Part shown: piece by piece, positions 9,328 through 36,142 of the stretch
Layout of the letters: every line of letters begins with the position of its first letter
How positions within the stretch are numbered: position 1 is the stretch's first letter
DNA from: Bacteroidia bacterium
GTDB taxonomy: Bacteria; Bacteroidota; Bacteroidia; B-17B0; Aurantibacillaceae
Length of the DNA: 64,000 bases
Direction of reading: 5' to 3'
NCBI GenBank assembly: GCA_016787785.1
Contig: JAEUTO010000004.1
Location: 248,001-312,000, forward strand
The notes under the pieces: generated by a model
What the model saw: only the letters and a program-made list of their open reading frames with translations
Told to the model about the DNA's origin: nothing
Database searches by the model: none
Program-made: the position numbers and the translations under genes

Positions 9328-12300
9328 TTATTTCCTTTTGTTATTGACGTTTTTTAATTTGACAAGATTAGTAGTTTTTAAAATTCCCTTCTGTAACTCA
9401 CCTACGTCAGTTTTAGGATTAATTTTTAAAGTTTGAATACGTATTTTGTTTTTTAGGAGCTCTTCAAGCAAAGGTTTATTATTGCATTTAAACATTAAAT
9501 AATAGAATAGCTTTAAAAGGGTTGTTTGTCTGAGGGTATTTAAATTTATCAATTCAATCACTTCATCAATTAAATCTTTATGGGCGTTAAGATCTAAGTC
9601 AATAAGTGTAAAGTATAAAATTAAAAGTTGAAATTGATTATTTTTTGCATCCTTTTTAAGAACTTGAATTTTATCTTTTAAAATTCTTTCAAGATCATTT
9701 TGCGCAATTGCATCATAAAAAAATGTTTGTACGATAATTGGCATAAAATTTGTGATCAACTGTACAAGCATCTGTTCTTGTTGCTCGCTTAAAGCTTCTG
9801 AGTTTGGTATAACCCCATCTTCTTCTGCTTCATCAATCAATTTAAAACCCATATAACATGCGTTATTCAATATGTAATCAAAAACTTCGCTAACCTGTTT
9901 TTCATCCTGAATATTACTATTTCGAAATACCCTAGCTAATATATGCAGCGCTTTTTCTAAATTATTTGAATTATCCTCTATTTTTTCGTAATAATGTTTG
10001 ACTTTCACTTCTGATTTCTGAATATTAACAGGGTTCATCTCCGCAAGCATTTCATCTTGTTTTTCAACAGTAAAAGTTTTTTTTATTTCAGAGCTTAACT
10101 GTTGAACAGGAAGTGAGATATCGTATGCCTCTGAAATTTTTAACATTAATTGCTTATCAATACTTGTTTTGGAGTATTTTTCTTCAACATTTCTAAAAAT
10201 TGATTTTGTTCTTTTATAGATCTTATCGAGATATTCGCTATTATTTTTTTCAAATCCAGCAAACAATTCTAATTCATTTTTGAATGATAGATAATAATGA
10301 TCGTCATTAATGATTTTATCACAAAATTCTTTATCATGTGTCATATAAAGTGCTACAAAGTATTCGAACACTCCATTTAATCTAAATGTATAGCTATCAT
10401 CAAAAGCTTTTCTTAGAATATTCTTTTCAATTACGAGATCGATAACATCCTTTACCTCAATAACAAATCTTTTATTCTTATCCCTATAGAAAGAAGTAAA
10501 TTCGACAATTTCTGCATAGGTTGCCGTGTAACCTTTATCTATTCTTTCAAATAAAAGAAAATGAGCTAGTTGAGCCAAATATGCTTTGAAGTCGTCAAAA
10601 TTAATCTTCGAACTTTTATCTAATGCAAGCCTTTTTCGATCTAGTAAATTATCTATGTAAAGTTGGATTAATTCAAAGCTATTGTGAAAATTTGCGTCAT
10701 TATTTTTTTCAAAAATCCAAAGAAATAATGAAACGGTCCAATAATTGGTTGGTATATTAAGTTGGGTAAAAATTCCAAATATTTTTTCGAGAATTATTTC
10801 TTTTTTATCTGTGGTTAATCCAGGCCACTTGTTAGCAAGTAAACGAACTTCTGGCCTAGATATTTCATGTATATATAAATTAGAATAAGTTCTTCCATCA
10901 AAAACATATGATGTGAAGGATGCGGCAAGCTTTTCTTCTGTTGCAGCTATAAATGTTACTGTCTCGTTTTCCTCCAAGAATGTATTAATAACTTCATTAA
11001 AAGAACTGAAGTTTGGATCATAATTATCGATAAGCAATCGAATTGAGTAAGTGCTTGACAATGACTTAGCCTTTGCAGCACTCATTTCATAATAAAGAGA
11101 AATGTTCTTATAAAGCTCAAGAGTTTTTTTAGAACTCTTATATTCCTTAGCATCAATTAGAATAGGTATGGTTTTATGAAGCGTGAAATCAGCGAGGAGG
11201 TCTAAAAAAATCTTGTAAAGTATAGAGGTTTTGCCACTTTTGTCTTTACCAAATAAGAGAATGTTTTCTTTGCTTGAAATAAAAGAGCTTATTGTTATAT
11301 TTCCAGTGTCACTTTTGTTTTCAGCGATTTGAGCCCGTGTTTTATTTTTTAATATTGGATCAGTGAAGAGTTCTATAAACCCTCTGGAACCTTCTTTACT
11401 ATCGTAAGAAATAAAAAGTTCATTTGCTCTCATTAACTCTTCTTGATATTTTTTTCTTAATGTTTTTTTAAAGTCATTAGCTGCTTTTTTTTGGTCACCG
11501 ACTGGTATAGAGGTTTTAATTGATTCTTTTGGGTGGAGAAATACACCATCTTGGCGATTATAAAAACGGTTATTTATTTCTATATCGTATGTTTCAACAT
11601 CGATTTCAATAATAGTGTATCCATTTGTTGTACCATCAAGAGCCAGAGTTGCAGCTGAAGAACAGCAGAATATCCCCTCGTCTGTACAAATTTGAATTGT
11701 TTGCTTCTTTTTATGGAGATGACCCGAAAATAATAAATGAAACTCCTTATGTATTAGGTCTTCCATTTCCGAACCATTCCAGTCTTTGAAATCAGAAATT
11801 GGATGGTGTAAAAGAATTATTCTAAAATCAGTATTTTTTTTGGTTTCTTCAATTGCTGCTTTCAGCAAAGAAATTGGAAATAATAAATTTCCTCTGTCTG
11901 TTTTTGAATCAATAGCTCGCCATGCGGAGTTGATGGTCAAAATACCTATCTTGTGATTATGGTAGTTAGTTTTTCGTATAGTGTATAGGTCAGAAATTAG
12001 TTGCTTTTCTGATCCGGAAAATTCATTGTAAAATTCCTCTTGAAATTTATTATAATTTAAAGTGTTTTTTAAACTCTCCTTAAAAGATTTTCCTTCCTGT
12101 CTTTTCAAAAATTCTTCGAGCTTTTCTGAATTATCAATCTGTTTAATTTTATCTGTAGTGTCTTCTAATTCTTGATCTCTATAAATGTCGTGATTACCTG
12201 GACAGATGAAGATGTTTTGTTTTTTTAGTTTCAACTCTTTTTCCAATCGATTAATCAGTAACTCTTTTGCTGTAATAAAATCCTCATACTTTTTTCCTGA

Positions 12301-12447
12301 AAAAACTAAGTCACCAGTAAAAAAAAGATAATCTATTTGTGTTTCAGATTTCAAATCTACAACAAGTGCATCGATTATCTTATTTTGATCGTGTTCATGC
12401 TTTTTATCGTTTGAATAATGAAAGTCCGTTAAGTGCAATATTTTCAT
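9328..12447 (-). CDS. Metallophosphoesterase fused to STAND/NACHT-like NTPase
   Basis: A 1039-aa cytoplasmic protein with no signal peptide. Residues 1-300 are a calcineurin-like phosphoesterase with every metal-ligand motif intact: D8-x-H10, GD at 45-46, GNHD at 84-87, HH at 214-215 and GHLH at 242-245. A linker (about 310-385) leads to a P-loop NTPase: Walker A GKDKSGKT at 400-407, Walker B LLID at 471-474, an IPTNYWTVSLFLW segment (565-577) like the NACHT proline motif, and YTFRLNGVFEYFVALYM (686-702) like the F-x-EYFxA winged-helix signature. Residues 710-1039 are helical, probably the sensor. This effector-switch-sensor order is that of STAND immune proteins, so I infer phage defence in which sensing activates the phosphoesterase. 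The gene looks more AT-rich than its neighbours, fitting horizontal transfer. A cytosolic signalling phosphatase is the alternative. Confidence 0.85.
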   Translation of the reverse strand: MKILHLTDFHYSNDKKHEHDQNKIIDALVVDLKSETQIDYLFFTGDLVFSGKKYEDFITAKELLINRLEKELKLKKQNIFICPGNHDIYRDQELEDTTDKIKQIDNSEKLEEFLKRQEGKSFKESLKNTLNYNKFQEEFYNEFSGSEKQLISDLYTIRKTNYHNHKIGILTINSAWRAIDSKTDRGNLLFPISLLKAAIEETKKNTDFRIILLHHPISDFKDWNGSEMEDLIHKEFHLLFSGHLHKKKQTIQICTDEGIFCCSSAATLALDGTTNGYTIIEIDVETYDIEINNRFYNRQDGVFLHPKESIKTSIPVGDQKKAANDFKKTLRKKYQEELMRANELFISYDSKEGSRGFIELFTDPILKNKTRAQIAENKSDTGNITISSFISSKENILLFGKDKSGKTSILYKIFLDLLADFTLHKTIPILIDAKEYKSSKKTLELYKNISLYYEMSAAKAKSLSSTYSIRLLIDNYDPNFSSFNEVINTFLEENETVTFIAATEEKLAASFTSYVFDGRTYSNLYIHEISRPEVRLLANKWPGLTTDKKEIILEKIFGIFTQLNIPTNYWTVSLFLWIFEKNNDANFHNSFELIQLYIDNLLDRKRLALDKSSKINFDDFKAYLAQLAHFLLFERIDKGYTATYAEIVEFTSFYRDKNKRFVIEVKDVIDLVIEKNILRKAFDDSYTFRLNGVFEYFVALYMTHDKEFCDKIINDDHYYLSFKNELELFAGFEKNNSEYLDKIYKRTKSIFRNVEEKYSKTSIDKQLMLKISEAYDISLPVQQLSSEIKKTFTVEKQDEMLAEMNPVNIQKSEVKVKHYYEKIEDNSNNLEKALHILARVFRNSNIQDEKQVSEVFDYILNNACYMGFKLIDEAEEDGVIPNSEALSEQQEQMLVQLITNFMPIIVQTFFYDAIAQNDLERILKDKIQVLKKDAKNNQFQLLILYFTLIDLDLNAHKDLIDEVIELINLNTLRQTTLLKLFYYLMFKCNNKPLLEELLKNKIRIQTLKINPKTDVGELQKGILKTTNLVKLKNVNNKRK

Positions 12448-22092: not shown

Positions 22093-22608
22093 ATGAAAAA
22101 GTTAATTTTATCAGCGATCTTAATAAGCACGTTTGGCCTGGTATCATGTCAAACTGCAGTTAACACAAAAGAAGAACAAAAAATTTCAAATAAAAAAGTT
22201 ATGGACACGAGCTACAAAAAAACAGACGAAGAGTGGAAAAAAATATTAACCCCCGAACAATATTATGTGTTGCGCCAAAAAGGAACAGAGCGCGCCGGAA
22301 CGGGTGTATATAACGATCATAAAGAAATAGGTTTTTATACCTGCGCGGGTTGCGGCACCGAATTATTCTCTAACGAACAAAAATTTGACAGCCATTGTGG
22401 TTGGCCAAGTTTTGATGGTGAGTTAGGTGGTGGCGACCGCGTATTAAAAGTAAACGATTTTTCGCACGGTATGATCCGTACAGAAATTGTGTGCGCAAAA
22501 TGCGGCGGCCACTTAGGACATATTTTTGATGATGGTCCAACTTCTACCGGCCAACGTTATTGCGTAAATAGTTTAAGTCTGGGTTTTAAACCGGCTGCGA
22601 AGAAATAA
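22093..22608 (+). CDS. msrB: Peptide-methionine (R)-S-oxide reductase, lipoprotein form
   Basis: Reduces methionine-R-sulfoxide in damaged proteins. The 171-aa protein has a lipoprotein signal (LVSC, Cys19), so it acts outside the cytoplasm. Zinc ligands C84/C87 and C134/C137, the CGWPSF motif (C102) and catalytic Cys157 in RYCVNS are all present; the family is otherwise about 140 aa. It is the first gene of the 22.1-25.1 kb plus-strand cluster. The Lgt-like gene follows by 21 bases, so envelope repair and lipid or lipoprotein chemistry may be linked. Confidence 0.93.
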   Translation: MKKLILSAILISTFGLVSCQTAVNTKEEQKISNKKVMDTSYKKTDEEWKKILTPEQYYVLRQKGTERAGTGVYNDHKEIGFYTCAGCGTELFSNEQKFDSHCGWPSFDGELGGGDRVLKVNDFSHGMIRTEIVCAKCGGHLGHIFDDGPTSTGQRYCVNSLSLGFKPAAKK

Positions 22609-22629: not shown

Positions 22630-23385
22630 ATGCATTTTCCGATAAATCTTCATCTTTTTGGTAAGGAAATTTCTACACATTATGCTTTAGAGATCATAAG
22701 CATTTTTATTGGTGTGCGCTATTACGTTTTTTTGCGAAAGCGAAGTCACGATACTATTAGTGATGTTAATCGCCTCAAGATCTTTGTCGCCGTTTGTTTA
22801 GGTGCCCTTTTAGGTTCACGTCTGGTAGGTGTTTTTGAAGATCCCGAACAATTTTTTGCAGCCCCCGATAAATTCCGTTACATATTTAGCAATAAAACAA
22901 TTGTTGGCGGCTTATTATTTGCTTTGTTTTTTGTAGAGCTTTTTAAACTTAAATTAAAAATTAAAACTTCCAGCGGCGATGTAATGACCTATCCCTTGCT
23001 GCTTGCCTTGATCTTAGGGCGTATTGGTTGTTTTTGTGAAGGTCTTGATGATGGTACTATTGGAAGAGCAACTACTTTGTTTACAGGAATAAATTTTGGC
23101 GATGGTATTTTACGGCACCCGCTTCCTTTATACGAAATAACATTTTTAAGTTGTCTTTGGTTAGTTATTTATAATCTTGATAAAAAGAAGGTATTAGCCA
23201 ACGGTTCCAAATTTAAATTGTTTTTGATCAATTACTTTTTTTACCGTTTTTGTATTGAATTTTTGAAAGATAATGAATTCACCATTTTTTATTTAAGCAC
23301 CATACAAATTGCCTGTTTAATAGGATTAATTTACTATATAAAAACACTTGTTCAACCAAAAACATTATTTTTACGTTATGCCTGA
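22630..23385 (+). CDS. Lgt-like (prolipoprotein diacylglyceryl transferase family) membrane protein
   Basis: A 251-aa protein with about seven membrane segments. Lgt hallmarks are visible: TIVGGLLFAL (about 90-99, the GG loop), GRIGCFCEGLDDG (130-142, with the conserved Arg131 of the Lgt signature) and HPLPLYE (163-169). Classical Lgt adds diacylglycerol to lipoprotein Cys. This protein is shorter than usual, has Cys-rich GCFCEG where Lgt has an Asn-containing loop, and its 3' end overlaps a radical SAM gene by 8 bases. I infer a specialised paralog handling a different lipid or acceptor; it could also be the cell's only Lgt. Confidence 0.8.
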   Translation: MHFPINLHLFGKEISTHYALEIISIFIGVRYYVFLRKRSHDTISDVNRLKIFVAVCLGALLGSRLVGVFEDPEQFFAAPDKFRYIFSNKTIVGGLLFALFFVELFKLKLKIKTSSGDVMTYPLLLALILGRIGCFCEGLDDGTIGRATTLFTGINFGDGILRHPLPLYEITFLSCLWLVIYNLDKKKVLANGSKFKLFLINYFFYRFCIEFLKDNEFTIFYLSTIQIACLIGLIYYIKTLVQPKTLFLRYA

Positions 23386-24772
23386 AAGAAGTTGGATCTA
23401 TTATGACTATACCATTAGTCTCTGTTCAAAATGTTTACGTCGCATTAGCGCTAAAATAGTTTTTGAGAATGATAATGTTTACATGATAAAGAATTGCCCG
23501 GAACATGGCATGGAAAAAGTATTGATAGCAACGGACATTGAATATTACAAACGCATTCGTAATTATAATAAACGCAGCGAGATACCATTAAAATTTAATA
23601 CGCCAACGTTGTATGGTTGTCCTTACGATTGCGGCTTGTGCCCGGATCATGAACAACACTCTTGTTTAACCCTGATTGAAATTACCGACAGATGTAATTT
23701 AACCTGCCCAACCTGTTATGCCGAATCGTCGCCACACTTTGGTAATCACAGAACTTTGGATGAGGTAAAAAATATGCTCGATCTTATTGTTGCTAACGAA
23801 GGAAACCCCGATGTGGTGCAGATCAGTGGCGGAGAGCCAACCATTCATCCGCAATTTTTTGAAATTTTGGATGAAGCTAAAAAAAGACCGATCAAACATT
23901 TGATGTTAAACACAAATGGAATTCGCATTGCAAAAGAAGAAGATTTTGTAAAACGTTTGGCTACGTACATGCCTGATTTCGAAATTTATTTGCAGTGGGA
24001 TAGTTTTGAAAACAAAGCTTTAAATAAATTACGCGGGGCCGATCTGTTGGATCTTCATTACAAAGCCATGGAGCATTTGAACAAGTATAATCTTTCTACA
24101 ACACTGGTAGTTACATTACAGCGCGGTGTAAACAATCATGAGATAGGAAAGATAATTGAATATGCTTTAAAACAACCTTGTGTAAGAGGCGTAACTTTTC
24201 AACCTGTGCAGGTGGCCGGAAGAAATGATAAGTTCGATCCTTCAACAGAACGTTATACATTAACCGAAGTAAGACGAGACATCTTAGATCAAACCTCCTT
24301 TTTTACCGAAGACGATCTTATTCCGGTACCATGTAATCCCGACGCTTTGGTAATGGGTTATGCATTGAAGTTAGAAGGTGAGATAATTCCACTTACAAGA
24401 TACATTAACCCTGCAGATCTGTTGGATAATTCAAAGAACACTATTGTTTACGAACAGGATGAGCGATTGCACCAACATGTTTTAAAAATGTTTAGCACCG
24501 CTAATTCGGTAGAAACAGTTACAGAGGATTTGAAAGAATTGATGTGTTGTTTACCTTTTGTAAAAGCACCGGATCTGGGTTATGATAATTTATTCAGGAT
24601 CATTATTATGAATTTTATTGACGCCTATAATTTTGATGTAAGAGCGATAAAAAAATCATGCGTACACATTGTACATAAGGATAAAATTATTCCTTTTGAG
24701 ACCATGAATCTGTTTTACAGGAATGGAAAGGATAAACAATTGGAAGAATTAAGAAAACTTCAGGTTATTTAA
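23378..24772 (+). CDS. Radical SAM enzyme, tetraether lipid synthase-like (COG1964 type)
   Basis: I start at the ATG at 23378, inside the end of the Lgt-like gene (ATGCCTGA overlap); 464 aa. A rubredoxin-like N-terminus has C16-x2-C19 and C40 in NCPEHG. It is followed by C81-x3-C85-x2-C88 and C96, then the radical SAM CNLTCPTC triad (C106, C110, C113) and a QISGGEPTIHP segment. This order of clusters matches the archaeal tetraether synthase Tes (MJ0619), which joins lipid tails by C-C bonds, and COG1964. In this bacterium it may cross-link or modify acyl chains handled by the Lgt-like partner. The substrate is unproven. Confidence 0.85.
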   Translation: MPERSWIYYDYTISLCSKCLRRISAKIVFENDNVYMIKNCPEHGMEKVLIATDIEYYKRIRNYNKRSEIPLKFNTPTLYGCPYDCGLCPDHEQHSCLTLIEITDRCNLTCPTCYAESSPHFGNHRTLDEVKNMLDLIVANEGNPDVVQISGGEPTIHPQFFEILDEAKKRPIKHLMLNTNGIRIAKEEDFVKRLATYMPDFEIYLQWDSFENKALNKLRGADLLDLHYKAMEHLNKYNLSTTLVVTLQRGVNNHEIGKIIEYALKQPCVRGVTFQPVQVAGRNDKFDPSTERYTLTEVRRDILDQTSFFTEDDLIPVPCNPDALVMGYALKLEGEIIPLTRYINPADLLDNSKNTIVYEQDERLHQHVLKMFSTANSVETVTEDLKELMCCLPFVKAPDLGYDNLFRIIIMNFIDAYNFDVRAIKKSCVHIVHKDKIIPFETMNLFYRNGKDKQLEELRKLQVI

Positions 24773-24791: not shown

Positions 24792-25079
24792 ATGGAAAAT
24801 AATGAAATTATAGACCCCGATAAAAAAACTGCCAAACTAATGGGCATTGTTAACGGTTTGTTGGTGGTTTTGATGGGATTATGCTGTCTTAGTGAAGACC
24901 TTGCCGTTTTCGCCTTTATTCTTGGATGTTTGGCCGGAATTTTAAATTTTATCCTAATGATAATCTTTATCGTTCAACGCAAAACGTTTTCATATATAAT
25001 TTGCATCATAAGCATGTTGCTAATGCCAATTATTGGTTTTGGCTGTTGCGCTTATGGCATAAAGAACCTGGGTTTTTAA
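24792..25079 (+). CDS. Small membrane protein, unknown
   Basis: The 95-aa protein has a short charged N-terminus and three or four hydrophobic segments (about residues 15-32, 36-60 and 67-90) containing several Cys (LCCLSE, FGCCAYG). No family is assigned. It follows the radical SAM gene by 19 bases and ends the cluster, overlapping by 4 bases the convergent aldo/keto reductase gene. Its location suggests a membrane partner of the Lgt-like/radical SAM pair, but that is inference. Confidence 0.68.
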   Translation: MENNEIIDPDKKTAKLMGIVNGLLVVLMGLCCLSEDLAVFAFILGCLAGILNFILMIIFIVQRKTFSYIICIISMLLMPIIGFGCCAYGIKNLGF

Positions 25080-33040: not shown

Positions 33041-34579
33041 ATGAAAAAATCTACCCTTGTGTGCCTTGCGCTTATTATTTTTTCATTTTCAACAAACGCA
33101 CAAACCGGTTACGATATTAAATTAAACTTAAAAGGCTGCAAGGATACCTCCATGTACCTTGTTAAATATTTTTTCACCTCCAATTTTATCGTGGATAGCT
33201 GTAAAAAAGTAAAGAATGGTAAAATTCAATTTAAAGGTAAAGAAGATCTTGAAAAAGGTGTTTACGCTATTGTAGGTGAGAATAAATCTTCTTTCTATTT
33301 TCAAATATTTGTAAATGAGGATAAAAAATTTACGATCTCTTCTGATTTTGCCGATATGGTAAACACCCTAAAGGCCGAAGGAAGTAAAGAGAACGAACTG
33401 GCGTTTACCTATATGAAATTTATGACCAACAAAAGCAGAGAATTTGGTAAGGTCATGGAAGAGTCTAAAGGAAGAAAAGACAGCGTTGCTTTTTTGACAG
33501 AAAAACAAAAGAGTTTTGGTGAAGAGACCAAAAAATTTGAAGACGATTTTGCTTTAAAGAACAAAGGCAGTTTTATCTTAGACTTCTTAAATCTAAATAA
33601 AGAAAAATATCCAACCGAAATACCTAAGGCATCAAACGGACGTCCGGATAGCACTTACCAATACTTTTATTATAAAGCACATTATTTTGACGGCGTGGAT
33701 CTGAATGACAACCGCATTATTCGCACACCATTTTTTGCCGATCGTGCAAAAAAATATTTCGAGAACGTAATTGTTCAGCATCCGGATACATTTATTGTAG
33801 AAATGGATAAATTCTTTGCAAAATGTAATCAGGGCACAGACATTTATAATTCTATGATAGGTTATTTAACTTACAAATTTGAGAATAACAAAACAATGAC
33901 CTTTGATAATAAAGGTAACACGGTAACTTTTGAAAAAGCCTTTGTACATATTTGCGATAAATATATTATTAGCGGAAAAGCGCCCGGCGTTTACACCGAA
34001 GAAACAGTAAAAAAAATAAAAGAGCGTGTGGACATTACACGTAATTTATTAACGGGCGCAAAAGTTCCGGATATACAAATGTTTGACAGCATTGGCGGAA
34101 AAGCAATTCGCAAAATGGGTTTTGATACCGCTAAAACAACAGTTAGTATTAGTGATCTTTATAATAAGAATATTGACAGGATAGCGCCATTGTATAAAAG
34201 TTTGTACTCGGTTAATGCAAAATATACCATTTTAGTTTTTTGGGCCGAAGATTGTGGTCACTGTCAAACAGAAATGCCTAAGTTAAAAGAAAATTTAGAA
34301 GCTATAAAAGGTAAAGTGGATTTTAAAGTATTTGCCGTGCAAACCAAAGGCGATCTGTTTGAGAAGTGGTGTAAATTTATTGTAGATAAGAAATTGGATT
34401 TTGTGAATGTGTATGAAGGCATTCCTTTTAATAATTTAAGAGAGAAGTTTGATATTTATGCCACACCGGTAATTTATATTTTAGATAAGGACAAACGTAT
34501 TAAAGCAAAAAAATTAGGAGCAGAGCAGGTTGTTGAGATCATCAAGATCATGGAAGAGGTTGATAAAAAGAAAAGCTAA
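33041..34579 (+). CDS. Secreted DUF4369/DUF5106-type TlpA-like thioredoxin (paralog 1)
   Basis: 512 aa with a signal peptide (ending TNAQ). Residues 22-115 resemble DUF4369 (GYDIKLNLKGCKDTSMYLVK), 120-330 are a helical DUF5106-like part, and 370-510 a thioredoxin fold with active-site C405-G-H-C408. It should work in the periplasm in disulfide reduction or cytochrome and extracytoplasmic redox handling. It has its own promoter. The next gene is a tandem duplicate. The cis-proline is in TPVIYILDKD, as expected. Confidence 0.87.
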   Translation: MKKSTLVCLALIIFSFSTNAQTGYDIKLNLKGCKDTSMYLVKYFFTSNFIVDSCKKVKNGKIQFKGKEDLEKGVYAIVGENKSSFYFQIFVNEDKKFTISSDFADMVNTLKAEGSKENELAFTYMKFMTNKSREFGKVMEESKGRKDSVAFLTEKQKSFGEETKKFEDDFALKNKGSFILDFLNLNKEKYPTEIPKASNGRPDSTYQYFYYKAHYFDGVDLNDNRIIRTPFFADRAKKYFENVIVQHPDTFIVEMDKFFAKCNQGTDIYNSMIGYLTYKFENNKTMTFDNKGNTVTFEKAFVHICDKYIISGKAPGVYTEETVKKIKERVDITRNLLTGAKVPDIQMFDSIGGKAIRKMGFDTAKTTVSISDLYNKNIDRIAPLYKSLYSVNAKYTILVFWAEDCGHCQTEMPKLKENLEAIKGKVDFKVFAVQTKGDLFEKWCKFIVDKKLDFVNVYEGIPFNNLREKFDIYATPVIYILDKDKRIKAKKLGAEQVVEIIKIMEEVDKKKS

Positions 34580-34615
34580 TAACAAAAATATTAAGTGGAC
34601 AAAAATAAATTCTTT

Positions 34616-36142
34616 ATGAAAAAAACAATTCTTTTACTCGCAGCAATTTTAACGTTTTCTTTTTCCGCAAAATCGCAGGGTGGTTACGACATTAAATTTA
34701 ATTTTAAAGGGTGTAAAGATACCCTGATGTATTTGGTAAAGTACACATTCGATCAACAATACATTGCCGATACCTGCAAAAAAGTGAAGAACGGTTTAGT
34801 GCAGTTCAAAGGAAAAAAAGATCTTGATAAAGGTGTTTATACTTTAGTTAGCCAGGAAAAATCTATTTATTTCGATTTTTTCATCAATGAAAATCAAAAA
34901 TTTACGGTTAATACAGATCAAGCTGATATTGTGAACACGTTGAAGTCTGTTGGCAACAAAGAGAACGAACAGTTTTTCTCTTACATTAAATATATAACCA
35001 ATAAAAATTTAGAGTTCGGAAAGATACGAGAAGCAACAAAAGGAAAAAGCAAAGCCGATAGTGCAAAATATGTGAATGATAAATTAAAGGAACTTAATGC
35101 GGATGTAAAAAAGTTTGAAACTGATTTTATGGAAAGTGTTAAGGGAACTTTTGTTTACGATGTATTAAATCTTAAAACAGAAAAAGAACCGAAAGATATT
35201 CCAAAAGCAAAAAATGGACGCCCCGATAGTTTGTATCAATACTACTATTACAAGAGCCATTATTTTGATGGTGTTGATTTTAAAGATGAGCGTATCATTC
35301 GCACTCCTTTCTTTGACGACCGTATTAAAAAATATTTCGATCAGGTGATCGTGCAGCATCCTGACACTGTTATACAAGAGATAGACAGGATCCTTGAAAA
35401 ATGCAACGAATGTAATTTGATCTATAATTTATTATTAGGCCATTTTACATACAAATACGAGCAAAGCAAAATTATGGGCTTTGACAAAGTATTTGTGCAT
35501 CTTGCTGATAAGTACATAATAGGTGGAAAAGCTGTTAAGTGCGGTGTTTACAGCGCAGAGACCGTTTCAAAAATTAAAGACCGTACCGATATTTTACGTA
35601 ATTTATTACTAGAATCAAAAGTGGCTGAATTGTATATGATAGATACACTTTACGGTAAACAAGTAATGAAGATGGGTTTTGATACAGCTAAAACAAGCAA
35701 AAGTGTTACCGATCTTTATTATAAGAATTTAGAGAAGTTAACGCCAATGTTCACTACACTGTATACTATTAAATCAAAGTATACTGTCTTAGCTTTCTGG
35801 GCTTCAGATTGCGGCCACTGCCAAACAGAGATGCCGAAATTAAGCGAGAATTTAAAAGACCTTAAAGGAAAAGTTGACTTTAAGGTTTTTGCAGTACAAA
35901 CAAAAGATGATTTTGAGGCATGGCGTAAATTTATAATTGAAAAGAAACTGGATTTTATAAATGTATTTGATCCGGTACACTTAAATAATTTAAAAGAGCG
36001 TTTTGATATTTATTCTACCCCGGTAATTTATATTTTGGATAAGGATAAAAAGATCAAAGCTAAGCGTTTAAGTGCCGATCAGGTGCCGGATATGCTGAAG
36101 ATGTTGGAGGCAATGGATAAAGCTGCCGCCGGAAAGAAATAA
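34616..36142 (+). CDS. Secreted DUF4369/DUF5106-type TlpA-like thioredoxin (paralog 2)
   Basis: I use the ATG at 34616, directly at the signal peptide (MKKTILLLAAILTFSFSAKS); 508 aa. A GTG seven codons upstream is in frame but only adds MDKNKFF. Domain order and the CGHC active site match the preceding gene, with clear residue identity throughout, so it is a tandem duplicate that has diverged mainly in the middle. The 36-base gap suggests cotranscription. Same predicted periplasmic redox role. Confidence 0.87.
   Translation: MKKTILLLAAILTFSFSAKSQGGYDIKFNFKGCKDTLMYLVKYTFDQQYIADTCKKVKNGLVQFKGKKDLDKGVYTLVSQEKSIYFDFFINENQKFTVNTDQADIVNTLKSVGNKENEQFFSYIKYITNKNLEFGKIREATKGKSKADSAKYVNDKLKELNADVKKFETDFMESVKGTFVYDVLNLKTEKEPKDIPKAKNGRPDSLYQYYYYKSHYFDGVDFKDERIIRTPFFDDRIKKYFDQVIVQHPDTVIQEIDRILEKCNECNLIYNLLLGHFTYKYEQSKIMGFDKVFVHLADKYIIGGKAVKCGVYSAETVSKIKDRTDILRNLLLESKVAELYMIDTLYGKQVMKMGFDTAKTSKSVTDLYYKNLEKLTPMFTTLYTIKSKYTVLAFWASDCGHCQTEMPKLSENLKDLKGKVDFKVFAVQTKDDFEAWRKFIIEKKLDFINVFDPVHLNNLKERFDIYSTPVIYILDKDKKIKAKRLSADQVPDMLKMLEAMDKAAAGKK

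Follow-up and report, generated by a model that had tools for sequence, protein, structure and literature searches.

A three-gene locus on the forward strand

We analysed 64,000 nucleotides of a Bacteroidia bacterium (Aurantibacillaceae; assembly GCA_016787785.1, contig JAEUTO010000004.1, positions 248,001 to 312,000), hereafter the window, in whose own coordinates positions are given unless another genome or locus is named. The genes considered here encode a protein of the prolipoprotein diacylglyceryl transferase family (Lgt-like), a radical S-adenosylmethionine (SAM) protein resembling the tetraether synthase Tes, and a small membrane protein with a cysteine close to its C-terminus. An earlier, sequence-only reading of this DNA had reported the first two as an overlapping pair forming a unit at 22630-24772. 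Both genes lie exactly where it placed them (22630-23385 and 23378-24772, with an 8-nt overlap and a stop ending at 24772), but as a unit the pair is incomplete, as a third, recurrent gene begins 19 nt past the radical SAM stop and the unit thus runs to 25079. The features are as follows.

22630-23385, forward strand: Lgt-like membrane protein gene (251 aa; PF01790 and TIGR00544 scores, structural model, residue comparison with E. coli Lgt)
23017-23043, forward strand: signature loop GRIGCFCEG of the Lgt-like protein, with C134 in place of E. coli Asn146 and R131 equivalent to Arg143, each in 60/60 rows
23378-23385, forward strand: 8 nt shared between the Lgt-like gene (stop) and the radical SAM gene (start) (seen in the sequence; overlaps in related loci)
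23378-24772, forward strand: radical SAM gene of the Tes/TrsS (HMPTM zinc-ribbon) superfamily (464 aa; PF04055, PF23545, 7tol, 7tom)
23423-23506, forward strand: rubredoxin-type site C16, C19, C40, H43 of the radical SAM protein, conserved and aligned to the MJ0619 site
23618-23641, forward strand: N-terminal auxiliary cluster motif C81, C85, C88, invariant
23693-23716, forward strand: CX3CX2C radical SAM motif C106, C110, C113 (CNLTCPTC), invariant
24792-25079, forward strand: small multi-helix membrane protein gene, candidate substrate (95 aa; position and Cys tail recurrent in relatives)
25035-25049, forward strand: Cys tail G82-F-G-C85-C86, nine residues before the C-terminus (family pattern; Cys in 92/93)

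The survey covered 395 Bacteroidota genomes, plasmid records and the best 80 of the 245 loci related to the window. From these we assembled 109 loci whose radical SAM gene has at least 55% identity, namely the best 80 of 245 relatives, 27 loci from other genomes, one plasmid record and the window itself; one of them (L004) is near-identical to the window region and was still counted as a locus. Among the best 80 of 245, the nearest named relatives are from Bacteroidota.

In the window, the radical SAM ATG at 23378 falls within the final Lgt-like codons, leaving 8 nt common to both frames. An Lgt-like gene lies within the locus in 100 of the 109 loci, and in 74 of these 100 the two genes overlap, by 8 nt (n = 36), 11 nt (n = 24) or 29 nt (n = 14), such that translational coupling through the overlap is likely. 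For the remaining loci, an Lgt-like gene was found elsewhere in the genome of L027, L046, L047, L058 and L063 (5/5), L094 and L110 (genomes G034 and G272) hold both enzymes with the Lgt-like gene on other contigs, and L026 and L044, with less than 310 nt upstream, were left out of this test. A chance neighbourhood of the two genes can be ruled out, since the overlap lengths recur and the genes co-occur, also where they are unlinked. The Lgt-like gene is likewise not the sole Lgt of its genome (G000): the second, canonical copy that the sequence-only reading had suggested looking for is present at G000:C10:11216-11983 (224.8 bits). Across the same 4.6-Mb genome, only a single match to the window radical SAM protein was obtained at E ≤ 0.001, so there is no second copy of that gene.

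A small membrane protein with a C-terminal cysteine recurs beside the pair

The third gene was sought downstream of the radical SAM gene as an open reading frame of 45-135 aa with at least two hydrophobic helices, starting between -25 and +200 nt from the radical SAM stop, a rule that demands no Cys and treats Cys as neutral in helix scoring. Among the 105 of 109 loci with at least 350 nt of downstream sequence, 93 have such a small membrane protein directly downstream, and 40 of these 93 genes overlap the radical SAM stop as ATGA. A Cys is located past the midpoint of the last helix, or behind that helix, in 92 of the 93, compared with 23 of 67 background two-helix small frames from the same loci (Fisher 3.7e-21). 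Around this Cys the family pattern is I-G-[FL]-[GS]-x-C followed by 3-13 residues, with G at -4 in 77/92, F or L at -3 in 76/92 and G or S at -2 in 86/92, and the residue directly preceding it is mostly T, I, V or S; in the window protein the tail Cys is residue 86 of 95. Lysine and arginine are heavily biased across the last helix, with 272 in the loop before it and 27 after it, so by the positive-inside rule the tail should face the periplasm.

Beyond this motif little is conserved. The proteins range from 54 to 117 aa, the gene is present in 1 to 4 copies per locus, and mean column identity in the tail alignment (A5) is 22%; A5 holds 100 of the 105 tails, and its Cys invariance is by construction, its rows having been chosen by a Cys-demanding pattern. 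With a stricter tail pattern, at least one copy was found in 92/109 loci, at least two in 27 and at least three in 5. Pfam and NCBIfam searches of nine small proteins returned sub-threshold matches only, to many membrane families.

Twelve loci fail the downstream rule, and nine of them have the small protein at another place or from another start: it is in place with a possible earlier start in L036 and L063, between the two enzymes in L100, L102, L104, L105 and L106 (the genomes of L100 and L104 being those of L163 and L164), 2 kb downstream in L005, and on a third contig of the genome in L094 (G034).

The genes co-occur across Bacteroidota and in several orders

At E ≤ 1e-30, the radical SAM protein was matched in 34 and the Lgt-like protein in 32 of the 395 Bacteroidota genomes, with both in 31 (one-sided Fisher 1.7e-41, or 2.0e-30 minus the 10 genomes behind the query alignment, both uncorrected for relatedness). 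The view that the two enzymes serve one pathway, which the sequence-only reading had drawn from coupled translation, is thus supported by 31 genomes with both against three and one with a single enzyme, and includes unlinked cases. Three genomes matched for the radical SAM protein only (G066, G096, G302), and in G096 a divergent Lgt-like gene does adjoin the radical SAM gene, together with a Cys-tail gene. The other two encode Tes-type proteins, scoring 493.8 bits (G066, over the Tes cut-off of 450) and 441.9 bits (G302, just under it), and neither has an Lgt-like partner at E ≤ 1e-30 in its genome or any within the 14 kb read. These Tes-type genes of Bacteroidota lie at 6864-8321 of L166 (G066:C91) and 6107-7582 of L167 (G302:C1).

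A profile of the small-protein tail matches the window protein in its own genome at E 1.9e-7, with that protein's own row in the profile. At E ≤ 1e-5 it matches 21 genomes, which are 20 of the 34 with the radical SAM protein and one of the 361 others (G013), alignments A5 and A3 including rows from some genomes searched afterwards; three extra matches (2e-4 to 9e-4) fall in long or interrupted frames.

The arrangement of the genes varies. The order Lgt-small-radical SAM also occurs among the loci, and in G121, G370 and G156, whose radical SAM proteins have 40-41% identity, the Lgt-like gene is downstream and is followed by the Cys-tail gene, with an ICMT-family gene (PF04140) in between in G156 (radical SAM-ICMT-Lgt-small). 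In L171, an unlinked Lgt-like gene directly overlaps a Cys-tail gene (small-Lgt). What recurs, in several orders and also unlinked, is the combination of an Lgt-like protein, a Tes-fold radical SAM protein and a fast-changing small Cys protein. In a distant branch, additional frames were observed between the radical SAM and Lgt-like genes, an ICMT-family methyltransferase in L155 (4784-5377) and a DUF4395 frame in L154 (5518-6516), and thiol or lipid methylation may be part of that version of the system.

The trio extends to Actinomycetota. Its genes are neighbours on two Mycobacterium plasmids and in a Nonomuraea record (11.9 Mb, labelled plasmid), with radical SAM proteins 30-33% identical to that of the window. 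The M. avium and M. branderi plasmids carry two tandem three-helix proteins between the Lgt-like and radical SAM genes, and the mycobacterial small proteins end in G-[IYLV]-C-T-G-L-N-P plus a few residues. In Nonomuraea, the same tail motif is found with I for L, the Cys-tail frame ends just past the first possible Lgt-like start, and the Lgt-like gene overlaps the radical SAM gene. For the TrsS-like genes of Mycolicibacterium and Haloarcula plasmids, the stretches read show no Lgt-like neighbour; a methyltransferase follows them, and they score below the TrsS cut-off of 490.

The radical SAM protein has a Tes-type fold but stands outside the Tes clade

Pfam assigns the radical SAM protein to Radical_SAM (PF04055) with an HMPTM zinc ribbon (PF23545), and its NCBIfam matches are TrsS (NF045646; 324.9 bits over residues 12-451, below the cut-off of 490) and Tes (NF045702; 272.4 bits, below 450). 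Each of the 48 sequences in alignment A4 hits both models at E ≤ 1e-20, with alignments A3 and A4 covering 41 and 48 of the 109 loci. Structurally, the protein is close to Tes over nearly its whole chain: it matches 7tol at E 1.5e-65, and its AlphaFold model (mean predicted local distance difference test, pLDDT, 77.2) superposes on 7tom with Z 39.6 and a root-mean-square deviation (rmsd) of 2.6 over 393 aligned residues, whereas the best non-Tes entry reaches Z 19.0 and the peptide maturase SuiB Z 18.6. The sequence-only reading had noted a rubredoxin-type N-terminus, an extra Cys cluster and the CNLTCPTC triad, all of which are present and conserved in relatives. The extra cluster motif is accompanied by C96, and altogether none of the 15 Cys varies across the query and 80 relatives, with one row incomplete at four.

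At the C-terminus the resemblance to Tes largely ends. With the MJ0619 ligand positions taken from PMC9433317, MJ0619 and two Bacteroidota Tes-type rows share an HxxC motif, a CC pair and PFC in this region, where the main family has NPDA, SC and PFE and, of these cysteines, retains only C428, the second in the pair; L160, with HPDC, SC and PFD, retains two of the four Tes C-terminal cysteines. The main family has its own invariant C319, C390 and C391, of which C390 and C391 are not placeable in the model because the stretch 366-398 has pLDDT below 50. An invariant Met411 occupies the position of MJ0619 Met439, and Ile431 that of Tyr459. By contrast with the Bacteroidota family, the radical SAM proteins of the actinobacterial loci retain the Tes-type C-terminal cysteines, so their loss is not required for association of the trio. 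Evolutionarily, a tree of 20 rows groups MJ0619 with L166 and L167 in one clade (100/98) and the main family in a separate one (100/100), with the distant branch L153-L155 joining the latter (90/88) and several long branches present. The proposed phylogeny against MJ0619 consequently leaves the window protein outside the clade of MJ0619 and the two Bacteroidota Tes-type proteins. Thus, the sequence-only assignment as Tes-like holds for the fold, near the whole chain, and fails for the family, the protein falling short of the Tes cut-off, scoring higher as TrsS and having mostly lost the C-terminal cysteines. Searches with PADLOC gave weak viperin matches only.

These data bear on a first alternative, in which the radical SAM enzyme joins or alters phospholipid chains, the Lgt-like enzyme moves diacylglyceryl to a lipid or head group and the small proteins are accessory. 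The Tes fold across 393 residues, the conservation of the rubredoxin, N-terminal and radical SAM cysteines, the invariance of Met411 at the position of the labile Met439 and the use of phosphatidylglycerol by Lgt all speak for such lipid-directed chemistry. We nevertheless consider it unlikely that lipids are the only targets, as the protein neither reaches the Tes cut-off nor falls in the Tes clade, the main family keeps one and L160 two of the four Tes C-terminal cysteines, the Tes-type genes of G066 and G302 have no Lgt-like partner at E ≤ 1e-30 or within the 14 kb read, and the constant Cys of an otherwise diverging small protein would be left unexplained.

In a second alternative, the radical SAM enzyme would act directly on the small protein, forming a thioether as in a ribosomally synthesized and post-translationally modified peptide (RiPP), C-methylating it or changing its Cys, with the Lgt-like enzyme lipidating or merely presenting the small protein. 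The tandem, precursor-like paralogues of the small gene and its ATGA coupling to the radical SAM gene (40/93) would fit, and the loss of Tes-type cysteines together with invariant C319, C390 and C391 suggests altered chemistry. Against this, no SPASM domain or RiPP recognition element is among the Pfam matches at E ≤ 0.01, the fold is nearer to the lipid enzyme than to peptide maturases such as SuiB, and the Cys should be periplasmic while the enzyme is cytoplasmic, unless modification precedes membrane insertion; we regard this explanation as unlikely to a similar degree as the lipid-only one.

The Lgt-like protein keeps the Lgt fold and two lipid-holding arginines

The family call made for the first gene stands: the protein scores 73.8 bits against PF01790 (cut-off 24.9 passed) and 46.6 bits against TIGR00544 (curated cut-off 118.9 missed), and its model (pLDDT 93.2) adopts the Lgt fold, with Z 14.2 to E. 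coli Lgt 5azb (rmsd 4.9, 239 aligned residues) against Z 6.5 for the next entry. Relative to E. coli Lgt, Gly142, Arg143, Gly145, Gly150, Gly154, Glu202, Tyr235 and Arg239 are kept in 60/60 rows, the position of Glu243 is E in 50 rows and D in 10, and Glu151, in a gapped stretch, is kept in only 9/60. The lipid donor of Lgt is phosphatidylglycerol (PMC4728403), and the two arginines that hold its ester are kept in the Lgt-like enzyme, so that transfer of a lipid group to the tail Cys would be its simplest putative function.

The signature loop had been described as Cys-rich and atypical, and GRIGCFCEG bears this out, with C134 invariant (60/60) and C136 variable. This invariant Cys and the Cys-rich enzymes generally would fit a third alternative, in which the small protein joins the two enzymes in a membrane complex as a regulatory or redox/metal subunit and its unlipidated Cys binds a metal or forms a disulfide; a membrane thiol could act as a redox partner. 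However, 1 to 4 copies per locus and lengths of 54 to 117 aa are unusual for a fixed subunit, and conservation is scarce besides the tail motif (mean column identity 22%). We consider this the least probable of the explanations considered here.

A proposed C-terminal modification system

We posit, at roughly 50% probability, that the three genes together encode a dedicated system for lipidating, or modifying in some other way, the periplasmic C-terminal Cys of the small protein; the third gene looks a better fit as an acceptor or substrate than free lipid does. Lgt lipidates bacterial proteins at a Cys that becomes the N-terminus. In the proposed system, the last helix of the small protein would run outward from the cytoplasm and present its terminal G-[FL]-[GS]-x-C on the periplasmic side, placing the tail Cys where a lipobox Cys would meet Lgt. 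The Lgt-like enzyme would then attach diacylglyceryl or a related lipid group to this Cys. With T, I, V or S usually standing just before it, most of these proteins would not be expected to be cut by LspA and would remain anchored. The radical SAM enzyme, whose fold holds lipid tails in MJ0619, would work from the cytoplasm. It would alter either the donor lipid at its alkyl chains, the kind of substrate that Tes uses, or else the small protein, and the product would end up with an unusual lipid or a second modification. The target of the radical SAM step is the least certain part of this explanation, and a membrane-spanning lipid product, as the sequence-only reading had envisaged, is possible but not favoured.

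Several observations weigh against this proposal. The position of the essential His103 of E. coli Lgt (HGGL) holds V, T, M or L in Lgt-like alignments other than that of 60 rows, where its column is gapped; Asn146 is Cys in 60/60 rows, so that the motif GRLGNFINGE is not preserved; and Tyr26 is His in 58/60 (two gaps). In E. coli Lgt, H103A/N/Q/R/Y failed to complement and the tested variants of His103, Arg143, Tyr26 and Glu151 were inactive (PMC4728403). With His103, Asn146 and Tyr26 altered, the Lgt-like protein may not transfer diacylglyceryl at all; the changes at these positions would be compatible with another acceptor or donor. The association itself has exceptions: G017 holds an Lgt-like gene by itself (L162, 5653-6498, reverse strand), with no radical SAM match at E ≤ 1e-30 in the genome and no Cys-tail gene nearby; no small Cys-tail protein was found within the stretch searched in L037, L046 and L079 (3/105 loci); and the tail profile misses 14 of the 34 radical SAM genomes and matches one of the 361 others (four at E ≤ 1e-3). 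Moreover, taking the best 80 of 245 relatives leans the sample to close ones, and the profiles include rows from some of the genomes searched, which favours detection there.

If the proposal is right, the system would represent a new kind of protein modification, in which a dedicated Lgt paralogue and a tetraether-synthase-like enzyme serve a small protein with a C-terminal Cys. The novelty concerns the three-part system and not the folds of the enzymes. It would also offer a role for some bacterial Tes homologues: PMC8941075 proposes synthesis of branched glycerol dialkyl glycerol tetraethers, and the relevant parts of PMC8941075 and PMC9433317 leave the function of such homologues unproven. 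Bolder, and less probable than the lipid-only and direct-substrate alternatives, is a horizontally spread system (Bacteroidota, mycobacteria, Nonomuraea) in which the Tes-fold radical SAM enzyme would make a C-C or C-S bond on lipid alkyl chains and the Lgt paralogue would fix this unusual lipid to the C-terminal Cys, giving a cross-linked or membrane-spanning anchor. Its product would be a protein-lipid conjugate of a new class, and the system could be viewed either as an inverted lipoprotein pathway or as a class of RiPPs modified by a lipid.

Relation to known systems

Each enzyme has a characterized counterpart from which it departs. The Lgt-like protein shares with E. coli Lgt (5AZB/5AZC) the fold and Gly142, Arg143, Glu202, Tyr235 and Arg239, but it is without His103, has Cys for Asn146, is below the curated cut-off and stands beside a normal Lgt in its genome. 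The radical SAM protein shares with Tes/GDGT-MAS (MJ0619, 7TOL/7TOM) the whole-chain fold, rubredoxin site, N-terminal cluster, radical SAM motif and Met439 equivalent, but HxxC, the first Cys of CC and PFC are replaced, the Tyr459 position is Ile, and it differs in clade, in score (272.4 vs 450) and in partner genes. TrsS (NF045646) is its top NCBIfam match (324.9 bits), with the cut-off of 490 missed, and the TrsS-like plasmid genes, in the stretches read, neighbour a methyltransferase and not an Lgt-like gene.

The nearest published idea to the cassette is that of the DAG-RiPPs (DybA, NedA; PMC12636315, a preprint), modified ribosomal peptides, occurring in Bacteroidota as well, whose Cys receives a lipid through the lipoprotein pathway. 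Those employ an MNIO enzyme, the ordinary lipoprotein pathway, an N-terminal lipobox Cys and cleavage by signal peptidase II, whereas the window system has its conserved Cys near the C-terminus of a multi-helix protein with a dedicated Lgt paralogue alongside; in Pfam and NCBIfam, the two cassette enzymes gave Lgt and radical SAM family matches only, with no MNIO. Of four near-identical single-cell genomes of Pseudarthrobacter, one lacks a stretch of ~3.5 kb with radical SAM and Lgt annotations; the paper (PMC12010503) mentions the pair in passing, and the relevant section has neither a third gene nor a function. By its description, not its sequence, this indel probably represents the same cassette, acquired or lost in one piece. 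Both gene names also occur in PMC7641849, in unrelated places. Literature searches, which leave out most subscription journals, found no paper about the trio, none uniting prolipoprotein diacylglyceryl transferase, radical SAM and tetraether, and none on lipo-invert.

The latter name belongs to NCBIfam NF058595 (invert_tail, 'lipo-invert putative C-terminal anchoring domain'), which suggests that curators have considered C-terminal lipid anchoring. Of nine small proteins, a single one, not the window's own, hit this model at E ≤ 1 (13.8 bits, cut-off 37); seven further small proteins gave no match at E ≤ 0.01, and the 395 Bacteroidota genomes gave none above cut-off. We rejected it as a name for the cassette, as it misses the small proteins and has weak matches (E ≤ 1) in all 14 control genomes, none above cut-off.

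Other features of the window

Directly upstream of the cassette lies a SelR/MsrB methionine sulfoxide reductase gene (22093-22608, forward strand), which by eye is absent from the 25 recurrent neighbour clusters of related loci. Further upstream, a 1039-aa protein on the reverse strand (9328-12447) matches the PADLOC candidate defence family PDC-S60 near end-to-end (1264.7 bits), and its N-terminal part, by eye, resembles a metallophosphoesterase. Downstream, at 33041-36142 on the forward strand, are two tandem paralogues of ~510 aa with, by eye, a thioredoxin-like CGHC near the C-terminus.

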